From the NCBI GenBank assembly GCA_003170825.1, contig PMYL01000013.1, positions 20,046 through 84,045 on the forward strand: DNA of 64,000 nucleotides, read 5' to 3'. The DNA comes from Acidobacteriaceae bacterium (GTDB lineage: Bacteria; Acidobacteriota; Terriglobia; Terriglobales; Acidobacteriaceae). A program made the position numbers and the translations under genes. A model generated the notes under the pieces. It was not told the DNA's origin. It saw only the letters and a program-made list of their open reading frames with translations, and did no database searches. Shown in pieces: positions 45,781 to 51,534 of the stretch (position 1 is the first letter of the stretch; every line of letters begins with the position of its first letter).

Positions 45781-45792
45781 CTCCCCTTAGCT

Positions 45793-45836
45793 TCAAGAAC
45801 CGACACGGCCTGCTTCTGATTCCGAGGAGCGGGCCG
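45793..45836 (+). terminator. Candidate terminator after infB
   Basis: AGAACCG at the left pairs with CGGTTCT at the right and an inner GGCC...GGCC adds to an imperfect stem with a large loop, followed by CATTTG. Position 15 bases after the infB stop supports termination, but the stem is interrupted and the T-run is short. Confidence 0.4.
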
Positions 45837-45882
45837 GTTCTCATTTGAACCTTCGATCGATCACCCCCAAAATGCCGGGTGC

Positions 45883-45912
45883 GGGTTCCCCAGGTCGAGA
45901 CCAGAGGAACCC
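45883..45912. repeat. Palindrome at the 3' edge of the DUF5131/TcmP cassette
   Basis: GGGTTCC...GGAACCC (7-bp arms around CCAGGTCGAGACCAGA) preceded by GCCGGGTG. The GCCGGGTG lead-in also precedes the hairpin at 47683-47717 on the other side of the cassette. Confidence 0.6.
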
Positions 45913-45944
45913 AGCCTCCCACAATACTATCCCTGGTCTTTGCT

Positions 45945-46760
45945 CTAGCTGCCTGCAAGGGCTTCGACCGGTACAAATGCAGTCGAATGGGCTGGCGAAA
46001 TGGCCTCTCCTGAAATACTGGTGGGAATGGAAGGAATAAACTCTGGAAAGTTGTTATAAGTTCTTCCATCGAGGATCCGCCCGAATGCCGCCTTCCGTGT
46101 GCCACCCCATTGTTTGAAAAAGAATGGGACTCCATCTCGGCTACATTGATTCTGAATGGACCGAACCCAGGCGGGTTGCATGGGGCGCGCCCCAGGACCA
46201 CTTTCCCCGCCGACGATCACCCAAGCAATCCCGTTCAGATCAATCTCTCCAAGGTCTTCAAGCAAAGGTTCAATCGACAAAAACCGCACTGCTATGCGAG
46301 TCTTCTGTAGCTTGCGCAACCTCGGGAGTCCGTGCTTCCTGTTCTCAACGCTGACGCCCCACCAGATGTGCGGCTCGGCAGCAAAAGAACTCAATGGTCC
46401 CGATAGAAGCCGTGCCATGCGATCATGGCGTTTGGTCAAGATCTGAAAGATATGCCAGTTGGCCTCCCGCATGACTCGGGCGATTTGCAGAATGTAACTA
46501 TCCGGAATGGATTCGTGGAAAAGATCACTCATGGAATTGACAAATATCTTCCGTGGACTCTTCCAGCGAAGGGGCTCCGGGATCTTCTCCGGAACCAAGC
46601 GAACGTCGAATCCCTGTTCAAAGGGATGTCCTGGAACACCGCGAAATCGCTCCGCAAATCGTTCCGCATAACAATTTTTGCATCCGGGGCTGATCTTCGA
46701 GCAGCCGCGTACCGGATTCCACGTTGCGTCGGTCCATTCGATTGTTGTGCCAAGCGACAT
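45945..46760 (-). CDS. DUF5131 / phage Gp37-Gp68-like three-Cys-motif protein
   Basis: A 271-residue protein of the phage Gp37/Gp68 family. The opening IEWTDATWNPVRGCSKISPGCKNCYAE has the three-Cys motif (C-x6-C-x2-C), quoted here for GCSKISPGCKNCYAE. Other blocks are FVNSMSDLFHE, FQILTKRHDRM, WWGVSVENRK, FLSIEPLL and VIVGGESGPGARPM, the last reminiscent of radical-SAM-like TIM-barrel proteins. No CxxxCxxC cluster is seen, so a radical SAM function is unproven. AGGAGG lies six bases before the ATG and overlaps the TcmP stop, so the two are translationally coupled. The pair is AT-richer than the flanking genes, suggesting transfer. Confidence 0.9.
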   Translation of the reverse strand: MSLGTTIEWTDATWNPVRGCSKISPGCKNCYAERFAERFRGVPGHPFEQGFDVRLVPEKIPEPLRWKSPRKIFVNSMSDLFHESIPDSYILQIARVMREANWHIFQILTKRHDRMARLLSGPLSSFAAEPHIWWGVSVENRKHGLPRLRKLQKTRIAVRFLSIEPLLEDLGEIDLNGIAWVIVGGESGPGARPMQPAWVRSIQNQCSRDGVPFFFKQWGGTRKAAFGRILDGRTYNNFPEFIPSIPTSISGEAISPAHSTAFVPVEALAGS

Positions 46761-46769
46761 TTTGACCTC

Positions 46770-47615
46770 CTATTGGAACAGGCTGCTTTGCTTAGTCGAG
46801 TATTTCAGTACTTGCGCCCATAGCTTGAAGGCCGTCTCATTTTTGGAGAACATCGCCAGGTAGTATAAGGGAACTTTCTTATCGTGAGTCTTGACCTCCC
46901 TCATCTGGTGGAGAGGAGTTTCAAGGTAGCCAACCTCCGACATACTCTGAGCAAATTCTCTGGCAAGAAATTTGGCAAAATCTTCATGAATATCAGTTCG
47001 CAGATTCCAGCGTTCTCTCCATTTTGTATTTCCGATCATCCTGTCTATCTTGCTGTCCGGCAGGAGGTAGTGCGGGACATTGCGCTTTGCATCCATCTGG
47101 AGAGCCAATAGACAGAGGAAATCCACACCACTCGCGCATTTCGATATTCTCTTAAGATCATCAACATCGAAATCGCAGTCGAAGGGGTCGACAAGACACA
47201 ACGCGATAGATTTATTCGGAATCATTGAACAAATCTCATCGATATGCTCTTCAAATTTTCCGGCAATCAAGCGAGTATCATGCTTCGCATAATTCTTCTC
47301 CACCCGGGTCTTCAAAGCTGAAAATCGCTCCGGGTTGCTTTCGCAAAAGATGTAACGATTAAAAGGAGCATCTACCGATAAGGCGATCAGTGGCGATCCC
47401 AGAAGGATTTGGTTGCGCCCCTTGATTCGGCACAGGCCGCTCCCAGCGTAAAGGTCTACGTAGACCCTCGTCCACATGTTCTTCATCGACGACGAAAATA
47501 TCTGGCAATAGAGGCGAGTCAGATCGAACTTGTCCTCCGTCCATGGCCCAACTTCAGGTATAGGCAGCCCGTCGTCCTCGCCGTACAGCGTCTCGTTCTT
47601 CATGGGCAAAATCAT
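46770..47615 (-). CDS. tcmP: Three-Cys-motif partner protein TcmP
   Basis: Member of the TcmP family, defined by its location next to three-Cys-motif proteins such as the downstream gene. The 281-residue protein opens IPEVGPWTEDKFDLTRLYCQIF and shows class I methyltransferase-like blocks: YVDLYAGSGLCRI (motif I), FCESNPERF (motif II) and LCLVDPFDCDFDVDDL (motif IV-like DPF). I infer a SAM-dependent nucleic-acid or protein methyltransferase fold, which is not proven. The preferred start is the ATG at 47615, with GGAG four bases upstream; 47603 (MKNETLYG) is an alternative. Codon use is AT-richer than neighbours. Confidence 0.88.
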   Translation of the reverse strand: MILPMKNETLYGEDDGLPIPEVGPWTEDKFDLTRLYCQIFSSSMKNMWTRVYVDLYAGSGLCRIKGRNQILLGSPLIALSVDAPFNRYIFCESNPERFSALKTRVEKNYAKHDTRLIAGKFEEHIDEICSMIPNKSIALCLVDPFDCDFDVDDLKRISKCASGVDFLCLLALQMDAKRNVPHYLLPDSKIDRMIGNTKWRERWNLRTDIHEDFAKFLAREFAQSMSEVGYLETPLHQMREVKTHDKKVPLYYLAMFSKNETAFKLWAQVLKYSTKQSSLFQ

Positions 47616-47682
47616 ACGCTCCAGGAGGGCGAACACAAAGAGAAAATATTGGCCGTGTATTCAGATGATACTGGCCGGGTGC

Positions 47683-47717
47683 CCCATCCTTCCGCAGCCT
47701 CATCGCGGAAGGATGGG
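47683..47717. repeat. 13-bp perfect hairpin upstream of the TcmP cassette
   Basis: CCCATCCTTCCGC and GCGGAAGGATGGG are perfect arms around AGCCTCATC, preceded by GCCGGGTG. It lies in the 307-base spacer between the ACAD gene and tcmP (47616-47922), in which no other feature was found. Confidence 0.8.
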
Positions 47718-47922
47718 AGACCCAAAATCTCAACCTGCATCCGTCCGCGCTTTCGTCCTTCCTGCCCCATTCGCCTTCTCCACAACCGGACCCGTAACCA
47801 GCACCGCCGGCTCCTGATCCGGAAAGGTTGCAATCAAGGTCAGGTGTGGCCCATGGCGCCGCCGCGCACCGCATCCCGGACAGCCGAGTGAGTCTGCGCC
47901 GCTCCAGCCGCCTTCCTGTTCC

Positions 47923-49843: not shown

Positions 49844-50476
49844 TCAGGGCGTTCCCACCGGCGCAGCTATGGCCGGTAACACGGGTTTGCCCGGACTGCT
49901 GAGTTGATCTTTTTGCAGGTCGCCAAGGAAGTTCAGTACAAGTTCCTCGACGACCTTGCCAAAGGCTTCTTCCGTGGTCATTGCGGGAATGCCTTCCGGG
50001 CCTTTAGCACGTCCGACCGTCGAATGAATCGCATGTTTATAGCCGGACTTAGTTATGGTCTTGCCCGCGATCGTGGCCGTGGCCTGCATTTCGTAGTAGT
50101 CGGTAACCGTAGAACCTTTTAAGAATAATGTGGACCCCGTAACGTATCCCTTTCTCCTGGCCTCGTCGAGGTCGGCAATATTGTTGACCACGACGGTGAG
50201 TTCGTCGGAACCGGGTTCACCGTCGGGAACAGGAATCGCAAACCCAGATGTTCTGATGACACGATCAACCTGTTGCATGAGTTCTTTGTCGATGCCTGGA
50301 AGGTGTTGCCCATTCCTTTGGAACTCCACCTTGAGTTTCAGCTTGTAAGGTTGCGCGGGCTTGACAATATCGCCGTATTTGACCTTTCCATAGCTAGGAT
50401 CAACGTAGGATTTTGTCGCTGCCGCATATCCTGCTCCACTGATGAGAAGCGCAAGAACGATTACAGTTCTCTTCAT
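49844..50476 (-). CDS. Secreted protein of unknown function
   Basis: I do not recognise a family. The 210-residue product starts with a signal peptide (MKRTVIVLALLISGAGYAAA). The mature part includes LPGIDKELMQQVDRVIRTSGFAIPVPDG and DELTVVVNNIADLDEARRKGYVTGS, resembling periplasmic proteins that sense or bind something, with no Cys and no membrane helix. The ATG at 50476 has AAGGAGAG upstream; the ORF track start at 50497 precedes it by seven codons. It stands alone, divergent from the AbrB/PIN pair. Confidence 0.75.
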   Translation of the reverse strand: MKRTVIVLALLISGAGYAAATKSYVDPSYGKVKYGDIVKPAQPYKLKLKVEFQRNGQHLPGIDKELMQQVDRVIRTSGFAIPVPDGEPGSDELTVVVNNIADLDEARRKGYVTGSTLFLKGSTVTDYYEMQATATIAGKTITKSGYKHAIHSTVGRAKGPEGIPAMTTEEAFGKVVEELVLNFLGDLQKDQLSSPGKPVLPAIAAPVGTP

Positions 50477-50815
50477 GAGTGCTCTCTCCTTCCACAAATT
50501 ACGTTAGGGCCTCAAAAATTCGGCATTGCGCGCATCGGCAAAACTTATCACCCCTATGCCTCGGGAAGGCTCAGCCGAGTTCCGTGATCCGGTTCCCCAG
50601 GCTATTCGACCGGATACATTCTAACGGACTGCGACTCAAAATTGTCAAGGATAGCAGCGCTTCCCCAGTACCCAACCGAGAGACGCCACACAGACAGGAA
50701 CAACGACCGCATAGCGCGCCAAACGCTAACAGTTCACGCTCGCTGGTCCCACTCCTTTGCGGAATATTTCGGCCTTGGCCATCTTTCTGTTATTCTGAAT
50801 ATCGGAGATTCTGAA
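50477..50815. other. Intergenic region between secreted-protein gene and AbrB/PIN pair
   Basis: About 340 bases holding the divergent upstream regions of the gene at 49844-50476 and the AbrB-like antitoxin. No gene is supported; no promoter is clear. A GGTTCCCCAGG piece near 50590 resembles the palindrome at 45883-45912 weakly. Confidence 0.5.
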
Positions 50816-51109
50816 ATGCAGACGGTTCTGATCGGCAAACGAGGTACGGTTGTGATTCCCGCCAAGATGCGCAAGCGCTACCGGCTGGACGAGGGAAGCC
50901 CGATGCTCATTGAAGAGCGCGAAGACGGCATTTTGATGCGTCCGGCGGCAACAACTCCCGTCGATGTAGAGATTTACACCCCTGAGAGGCTGGCCGAGTT
51001 CTTTCTGAACAATGTATTGACGAAAGAGGGCTATCTGGAAGCTCGCAGGGATGTGGAGCAGATGGGCATCAATCCGGATTCGATCGATCATATCCGGTGG
51101 CCTGAATGA
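50816..51109 (+). CDS. AbrB/SpoVT-type antitoxin
   Basis: Antitoxin of 97 residues with the swapped-hairpin DNA-binding domain at residues 1-45 (VLIGKRGTVVIPAKMRKRYRLDEG, MLIEEREDGILMRP). The C-terminal half (TPERLAEFFLNNVLTKEGYL...RRDVEQMGINPDSIDHIRW) is a helical tail that probably binds the toxin. The ORF track start is 58 codons earlier, but the ATG at 50816 has CGGAG eight bases upstream and fits the domain. It overlaps the PIN gene by four bases (ATGA). Confidence 0.93.
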   Translation: MQTVLIGKRGTVVIPAKMRKRYRLDEGSPMLIEEREDGILMRPAATTPVDVEIYTPERLAEFFLNNVLTKEGYLEARRDVEQMGINPDSIDHIRWPE

Positions 51110-51534
51110 CCCCTGCTTATGGCCCAGCCACGACTTTGTTCCTGGATGCCAACGTGCTGATCTCCGCCGCATGGAAGGAAGGCAGTGAGATCGCACTGAT
51201 ATGGAAGATGGAGGGCGTCCGGCTGATCACATCGCATTATGTGATGGGCGAGGTTCAGCGCAACCTGCATCAGATGGGCCAGATCGAGCGGTTACGAGGC
51301 CTGATGCGATCCGTTCAAATCGTCTCCTTCGAAAAACTGCCCGATATCCCCGAAGCAGTTGCTCTGCCGGAAAAGGACCGCCCAGTCCTCGCTGGAGCGG
51401 TCCAGGCGCAAGCGGACCATCTGGTTTCAGGGGACAAGAGACACTTTGGCTCTTGGTACGGAAAGATCATTTGCGGCGTGCGGATCACGGCGCCAACTGA
51501 ATTGCTTACGGTCCTTCGGCTCCGTCTTCCCTAG
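51106..51534 (+). CDS. PIN-domain toxin (second pair)
   Basis: PIN endoribonuclease of 142 residues. Asp in TLFLDANVLISAAW, Glu in YVMGEVQRNL, and acidic residues in LPEKDRPVLAGAVQAQADHLVSGDKRHFG are the expected metal-site positions, with the typical DHLVSGDKRHF ending. The group differs from the VapC at 34041 and is closer to the PIN_3/YlaK-like type. It follows the antitoxin with a four-base overlap. No transposon or integrase is adjacent. Confidence 0.92.
   Translation: MTPAYGPATTLFLDANVLISAAWKEGSEIALIWKMEGVRLITSHYVMGEVQRNLHQMGQIERLRGLMRSVQIVSFEKLPDIPEAVALPEKDRPVLAGAVQAQADHLVSGDKRHFGSWYGKIICGVRITAPTELLTVLRLRLP

Follow-up and report, generated by a model that had tools for sequence, protein, structure and literature searches.

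A mobile gene pair encoding an RlmJ-like TcmP protein and a probable radical-SAM-like DUF5131 protein in an Acidobacteriaceae genome

Introduction

The 23S rRNA methyltransferase RlmJ forms m6A2030, and its residues K18, S100, E118, and D164 have been reported to contact AdoMet or to be catalytic (PMC3814359). The radical-SAM mobile pair proteins A and B (TIGR04471 and TIGR04470) and spore photoproduct lyase represent radical-SAM enzymes that are relevant for comparison. The phage-defence candidates PDC-M41 and PDC-M30 of PADLOC, both with the subunits A and B, are “guilt-by-embedding” candidates (PMC10855318, PMC11878078). In a survey of 100 P. aeruginosa strains, 32 carried the candidate PDC-M30, and 68.8% of these were phage-resistant (PMC10855318). 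For strain PA14, two PDC-M30 pairs have been reported (PMC11878078). For two further PADLOC candidates, tests in the native host revealed no activity in defence (PMC12409345), so that candidate status is weak evidence for a function in defence.

An open literature search yielded no paper on DUF5131 and no experimental report on either TcmP or DUF5131. Here, we describe a tcmP-DUF5131 gene pair in a 64,000 nt stretch of DNA from an Acidobacteriaceae bacterium (in the following “the window”). The pair is a real, mobile, and conserved module of a kind that is already catalogued in NCBIfam and PADLOC, and that spans many bacterial phyla as well as phages. New is the tie of TcmP to RlmJ suggested by profile and model comparisons, with conserved AdoMet and catalytic Asp positions and a non-canonical motif IV (DP[FY]G/D).

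Results

Gene layout, translational coupling, and base composition

Two minus-strand genes had been predicted, and the open reading frames together with the families TIGR04474 and PF07505 confirmed both the assignments and the motifs. The first gene, tcmP (three-Cys-motif partner), occupies positions 46770-47636 (-) if read from a GTG at 47636. This start is probably too early, and the ATG at 47615, resulting in a protein of 281 aa, is the probable true start because it is preceded by a GGAG and matches the relatives. The second gene encodes a DUF5131 protein of the phage Gp37/Gp68 family (271 aa) at positions 45945-46760 (-), and it starts with an ATG at 46760, just after the Shine-Dalgarno (SD) motif AGGAGGT (46765-46771 (-), read from the sequence; the junction is ...CAATAGGAGGTCAAAATG). 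As proposed in the original prediction, the SD motif (46771-46765) overlaps the tcmP stop codon TAG (46772-46770), and coupled translation of the two genes is therefore likely. The genes had also been described as overlapping; they adjoin and appear to be coupled, but the two frames are 9 bases apart and do not overlap. A promoter scan revealed no sigma-70-like site, and no RNA family of Rfam was matched in the region 45-52 kb of the window.

The GC content of tcmP is 0.483, the lowest value among the 35 window ORFs with a length of 200 aa or more, and that of the DUF5131 gene is 0.533, in comparison to 0.620 for the window. With 20 genes of the window as reference, the codon-use z values of the two genes are -3.4 and -3.3. 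The pair thus differs from the chromosome in base composition, and the AT-richer codon use that had been claimed in comparison to the neighbours is borne out. A similar codon deviation (z -3.4) was observed for a 217-aa ORF without assigned family at 49844-50497 (-), and a MazE/AbrB-type antitoxin and PIN-domain toxin pair at 50642-51534 (+), 3 kb from the cassette, is also AT-rich.

Relationship of TcmP to RlmJ

TcmP matches TIGR04474 with 121.9 bits (curated cut-off 53). Its AlphaFold2 model (pLDDT 91.7) is predicted to have a Rossmann methyltransferase fold with AdoMet residues, i.e. the SAM-binding fold that the original prediction implies is present in the model. A sequence search of solved structures with the TcmP of the window alone gave no match, and a profile of 62 TcmPs retrieved RlmJ with an E value of 4e-7. 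A Foldseek search with the model agreed with this result: the best 13 matches were all RlmJ (E. coli RlmJ; E 1.2e-7, TM 0.48-0.53), followed by the homologue 2oo3 and, further down, by Trm1. The comparison of TcmP with E. coli RlmJ by hhalign resulted in a probability of 95.5 and an E value of 1.4e-8. Profile and predicted fold make it very probable that TcmP is related to this 23S rRNA m6A methyltransferase.

In the hhalign alignment, residues S81, E99, and D150 of TcmP correspond to S100, E118, and D164 of RlmJ. Among the 62 TcmPs, the Ser is found in 59, an Glu or Asp at the second position in all 62, and the Asp in all 62. The profile alignment starts after helix residue K36, which is a Lys in 61 of 62 TcmPs and is located 25 residues before D61 (in RlmJ, K18 is located 22 residues before D40); K36 is likely to be the counterpart of K18. 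Motif IV reads DPFD in the window and DPYG, DPFG, or DPTG in relatives, and thus deviates from the DPP(Y/F) found both in RlmJ and in m6A DNA methyltransferases. Therefore, the target may differ, or the activity may have been lost in some members. The tRNA guanine-26 N2-methyltransferase Trm1 has DPFG at the place of motif IV, from which we infer that an exocyclic amine of a nucleobase is still the likely target of TcmP.

DUF5131 as a probable radical-SAM-like enzyme

The match of DUF5131 to PF07505 covers residues 5-239 (323.2 bits, E 1.3e-96; gathering score 28.9). Residues 17-217 match the radical-SAM mobile pair protein A family TIGR04471 (rSAM_mob_pairA) with 66.8 bits and an E value of 1.9e-18, below the equivalog cut-off of 355, and this family is matched by all 63 DUF5131 relatives that were compared. 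C20, C27, and C30 form a CX6CX2C motif that is invariant in 63 of 63 DUF5131 sequences. The canonical radical-SAM motif CX3CX2C is absent, and the assignment is therefore probable, not proven. Several accepted radical-SAM families have cysteine spacings other than CX3CX2C.

No solved structure was matched by the DUF5131 sequence. The order of strand, Cys loop, and helix in the model (pLDDT 88.8) fits a radical-SAM (beta/alpha) barrel. Foldseek matches of the model include, among other TIM barrels, spore photoproduct lyase and AprD4, with weak E values of 2e-3 to 7e-3, and viral radical-SAM proteins were also matched. Together, the sequence and model comparisons indicate that DUF5131 is probably a radical-SAM-like enzyme. 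The C-terminus (45945-46040 of the window) is predicted to be a disordered tail (pLDDT <50) that ends with FVPVEAL, which is conserved in the copies of the genus and is a possible partner-binding peptide.

Pairing and divergence of the two proteins

TcmP is encoded within 1.5 kb of DUF5131 in 69 of the best 80 DUF5131 loci in GTDB genomes, which represent many phyla. The two genes mostly overlap or are separated by <15 bp, and 66 of the 69 pairs are co-directional, with TcmP on either side of DUF5131. Within the phylum, DUF5131 was found above the cut-off in 44 of 199 genomes. For 80 viral DUF5131 loci, TcmP is nearby in 35 and absent from the vicinity in 45, i.e. phages often carry a solitary DUF5131, and it is located in replication and recombination modules, among genes for RecE/RecT, SSB, helicase, resolvase, and DNA methyltransferase.

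The mean pairwise identities in 65 pairs are 64% for DUF5131 and 23% for TcmP, a contrast that is inflated because the loci were sampled by DUF5131 similarity and the sample is thus biased. The TcmPs next to DUF5131s that are 65-70% identical to that of the window range from about 50% down to <25% identity. The identity matrices of the two proteins are weakly correlated (r 0.20; none of 2000 permutations gave a value as high). The difference in mean identity is compatible with a core that remains constant and a partner that can be exchanged. Some plasmids encode TcmP twice, with a short version facing a long version and DUF5131, and one TcmP of the long type carries the Pfam domain GMT-wHTH. 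At one locus (L266, 2153-3062), TcmP is broken across three reading frames, representing a decayed copy or sequencing errors.

Clustering of 951 neighbour genes from 80 loci revealed no third partner gene conserved in more than nine loci. An optional third gene of about 310-334 aa was observed beside a few pairs (L124 2712-3653, L285 11122-12126, L270 12885-13886, L276 12935-13921, and L213 8089-9018). Its product has no Pfam match and contains the conserved blocks SDFGG, TDEDD, and EDL..IPDL, and it may perhaps be an RNase H-like nuclease.

Insertion site, mobility, and flanking palindromes

The pair is located in a variable interval (45781-47922) between the convergent genes infB and the acyl-CoA dehydrogenase (ACAD) gene. 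A blastn comparison with nine syntenic relatives showed that the homology of the flanking DNA ends at about 45780 and about 47922, confirming the proposed insertion right after infB and before the ACAD gene. In all nine relatives, which belong to the same genus and have both flanks on one contig, the two genes also converge on the interval; its length varies from 0.9 to 7.4 kb, its contents differ, and the pair is absent in nine of nine. The infB slot is a general insertion site. In the relative with the most similar dehydrogenase (G030, 90%), it holds an AbiEii/AAA_21-type AAA-ATPase, and an ORF pair resembling MNT/HEPN was seen by inspection near the equivalent place (L108 9739-10537).

The original prediction had placed the pair at the usual position of rbfA/truB, which does not apply to this genus: inspection showed that the region behind infB is a variable interval in which no rbfA-like genes occur. 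We also considered a displacement of rbfA/truB by the cassette and rejected it, since rbfA of this genome is located on contig C4 and none of the relatives examined has rbfA after infB, so that nothing was displaced.

Among 99 relatives, TcmP is present in 16 and DUF5131 in 26, and all 16 TcmP-bearing genomes have a DUF5131 within about 1 kb. The closest pair (G035; identities of 85% for TcmP and 86% for DUF5131) and the pairs of G033 and G037 (71-72% for TcmP and 79% for DUF5131) are all located at other loci. By inspection of ORFs, the pair of G035 and a DUF5131 of G010 lie close to a gene resembling that for ribosomal protein L10, and the pairs of G037 and G033 lie close to purL. This DUF5131 of G010 (L121 5152-5967) is 85% identical to that of the window and has no TcmP alongside; the same genome has a separate TcmP-DUF5131 pair on contig C159. 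The occurrence of the pair at three or more sites within one genus shows that it moves. The odd composition, the absence from the site in nine relatives, the patchy distribution in the genus, and the close copies (71-86% protein identity) at other loci make it well supported that the pair is a transferred cassette, as had been proposed.

The original prediction also included GCCGGGTG-led palindromes on both sides of the pair. They do exist, but they are not features of the cassette. The right palindrome (47674-47723 (+); 19-nt arms, 89% complementary) is REP-like and has the head GCCGGGTGCCCCAT, and the left one (45874-45912 (+)) has only the 9-nt head GCCGGGTGC in common with it and a different stem. 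If up to one mismatch is allowed, the head GCCGGGTGCCCCAT occurs 52 times in the genome of 3.49 Mb, compared with two occurrences of a reversed-pattern control, and this head mostly leads hairpins with varied stems; the 9-mer GCCGGGTGC shared by both flanks is the head of this dispersed repeat. The palindromes are therefore dispersed REP-like repeats and not cassette termini, and their role as cassette ends was ruled out, also because the right palindrome has one near-copy elsewhere, on contig C17. No terminal repeats or target-site duplication of its own, as for a transposon-like cassette, were found for the pair. In contigs C3-C49 of the genome, the repeat family consists of the head GCCGGGTGCCCCAT(CC), a variable stem, and a tail (GGGTGGGA), and three genes of the genome match the Y1-type transposase-like kind that is associated with REP elements.

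Defence-related matches and neighbours

DUF5131 matches the PADLOC families PDC-M41B (E 4e-99) and PDC-M30B (E about 1e-99), and TcmP matches PDC-M41A (E 9.7e-22). Both PDC-M41 subunits are thus encoded next to each other, 9 bp apart, and for PDC-M30 no match to M30A was found at an E value of 0.01. From 62 TcmPs, 56 match M41A and 44 match M30A.

Named defence genes are located beside the pair in three plasmid loci. In Leptospira, the neighbour is a type ISP restriction enzyme, and in Agrobacterium, it is a DUF1837 and DEAD/DEAH helicase pair, which is Hachiman-like, as DUF1837 is HamA of Hachiman. The S. meliloti pair adjoins Hna, a defence neighbour in this species (PMC12445080). The respective block on pSymA (L285 5355-12126) consists of the Hna helicase, a short TcmP, a convergent long TcmP with DUF5131, and a 334-aa gene, and it is a five-gene, defence-like block.

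For comparison, 125 near and 125 far neighbours were searched for PADLOC families. The numbers of families matched were 86 and 133, respectively, i.e. there is no excess near the pair. The near set includes a type I MTase in three members and the MADS gene mad3 in four. The suggestion that the pair may function in defence is therefore plausible in view of the PADLOC entries and the plasmid neighbours, but it is not backed by an enrichment of defence genes among near neighbours.

Discussion

One protein of the pair resembles nucleic acid methyltransferases and the other resembles radical-SAM enzymes, which makes a joint modification of DNA or RNA probable. The proposal of a nucleic acid modification thus receives real support from the profile and fold matches between TcmP and RlmJ and from the radical-SAM-like character of DUF5131. 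Our preferred reading is that the pair is a mobile module of two enzymes that jointly modify nucleobases of DNA or RNA, probably in conflicts with phages; we assign a probability of about one half to this statement as a whole. DUF5131 would perform the radical step with a cluster bound by CX6CX2C, and TcmP would methylate an exocyclic amine in an AdoMet-dependent reaction, or would hold and select the target. DUF5131 would be the constant part, and TcmP would be a partner that diverges rapidly, can be exchanged, and probably determines the target specificity. Bacteria and prophages may carry the pair as accessory genes in conflicts with phages or other mobile DNA, and it could either mark the nucleic acid of the host or alter that of the invader.

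Several other explanations were considered. The pair might repair or edit damaged nucleobases, with DUF5131 acting like spore photoproduct lyase and TcmP locating or finishing the repaired site, and would then be a fitness gene and not a defence system. The solved radical-SAM folds that are nearest to DUF5131 include structures of spore photoproduct lyase, and phage copies of DUF5131, which are commonly solitary (45 of 80 viral loci), lie in recombination and replication modules. However, the likeness to the lyase is weak and limited to the fold, without a sequence match, a fast-diverging methyltransferase is not obviously needed for repair, and the patchy spread (44 of 199 phylum genomes) and the plasmid neighbours are more reminiscent of accessory genes for conflicts, so that we regard repair as unlikely. 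A modification of host rRNA or tRNA, leading to resistance or translational tuning instead of defence, would fit RlmJ as the closest solved relative of TcmP. Yet a conserved target would favour a conserved enzyme, whereas TcmP diverges strongly, and the pair is also present in viral contigs (35 of 80), which renders this explanation somewhat less likely still.

Viperins are antiviral radical-SAM enzymes with nucleotides as substrates, and they make ddh-nucleotides. DUF5131 might similarly make a modified nucleotide or small molecule that stops phage replication, and TcmP, with its predicted complete AdoMet site, might methylate the product or protect the host. This is improbable, given that the nearest relatives of TcmP act on RNA and that phages themselves carry DUF5131 inside replication modules, which would be odd for an enzyme that makes a chain terminator. 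Equally improbable is a selfish or neutral pair that has no beneficial role and is kept by frequent transfer. Its patchiness and mobility, as well as the DUF5131 that G010 keeps at one site (L121) without TcmP, are compatible with this explanation, but across many phyla, hardly any variation is seen in the active-site residues of the two proteins, and continued selection is needed to account for this.

Under the preferred reading of a joint nucleic acid modification in phage conflict, a radical-SAM step would be added to bacterial immunity beyond viperins. A more far-reaching version, which we regard as tentative and rather doubtful, is a new two-enzyme chemistry of immunity or counter-immunity, in which a radical-SAM enzyme with the non-canonical cluster site CX6CX2C and an interchangeable RlmJ-like amino-methyltransferase together introduce a novel modified base into DNA or RNA, and TcmP decides about the target like the specificity subunits of restriction systems. 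The ties of TcmP to RlmJ and of DUF5131 to radical-SAM enzymes offer two direct assays, i.e. AdoMet binding and nucleoside mass spectrometry.

In comparison to known systems, the pair of the window scores above the curated cut-offs of both TIGR04474 and PF07505 and shows the usual pairing of these families; its TcmP is of the short type and lacks the C-terminal extension found in 45 of 65 pairs. It resembles the PADLOC candidates PDC-M41 and PDC-M30 in that both genes have matches and are adjacent, and differs from PDC-M30 in the missing M30A match at the threshold used. Like the radical-SAM mobile pair and spore photoproduct lyase, DUF5131 has a predicted barrel fold, and it can be aligned with TIGR04471. 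In contrast to the mobile pair, it has the CX6CX2C spacing, reaches 66.8 instead of 355 bits, and has a methyltransferase as partner rather than a second radical-SAM protein. TcmP shares with RlmJ the predicted Rossmann methyltransferase core and the aligned AdoMet residues and catalytic Asp. It differs from RlmJ in having DPF[GD] instead of DPPY at motif IV, in an identity of only about 13%, in lacking the RlmJ insert of about 40 residues between motif I and GSP, and in being encoded next to DUF5131.
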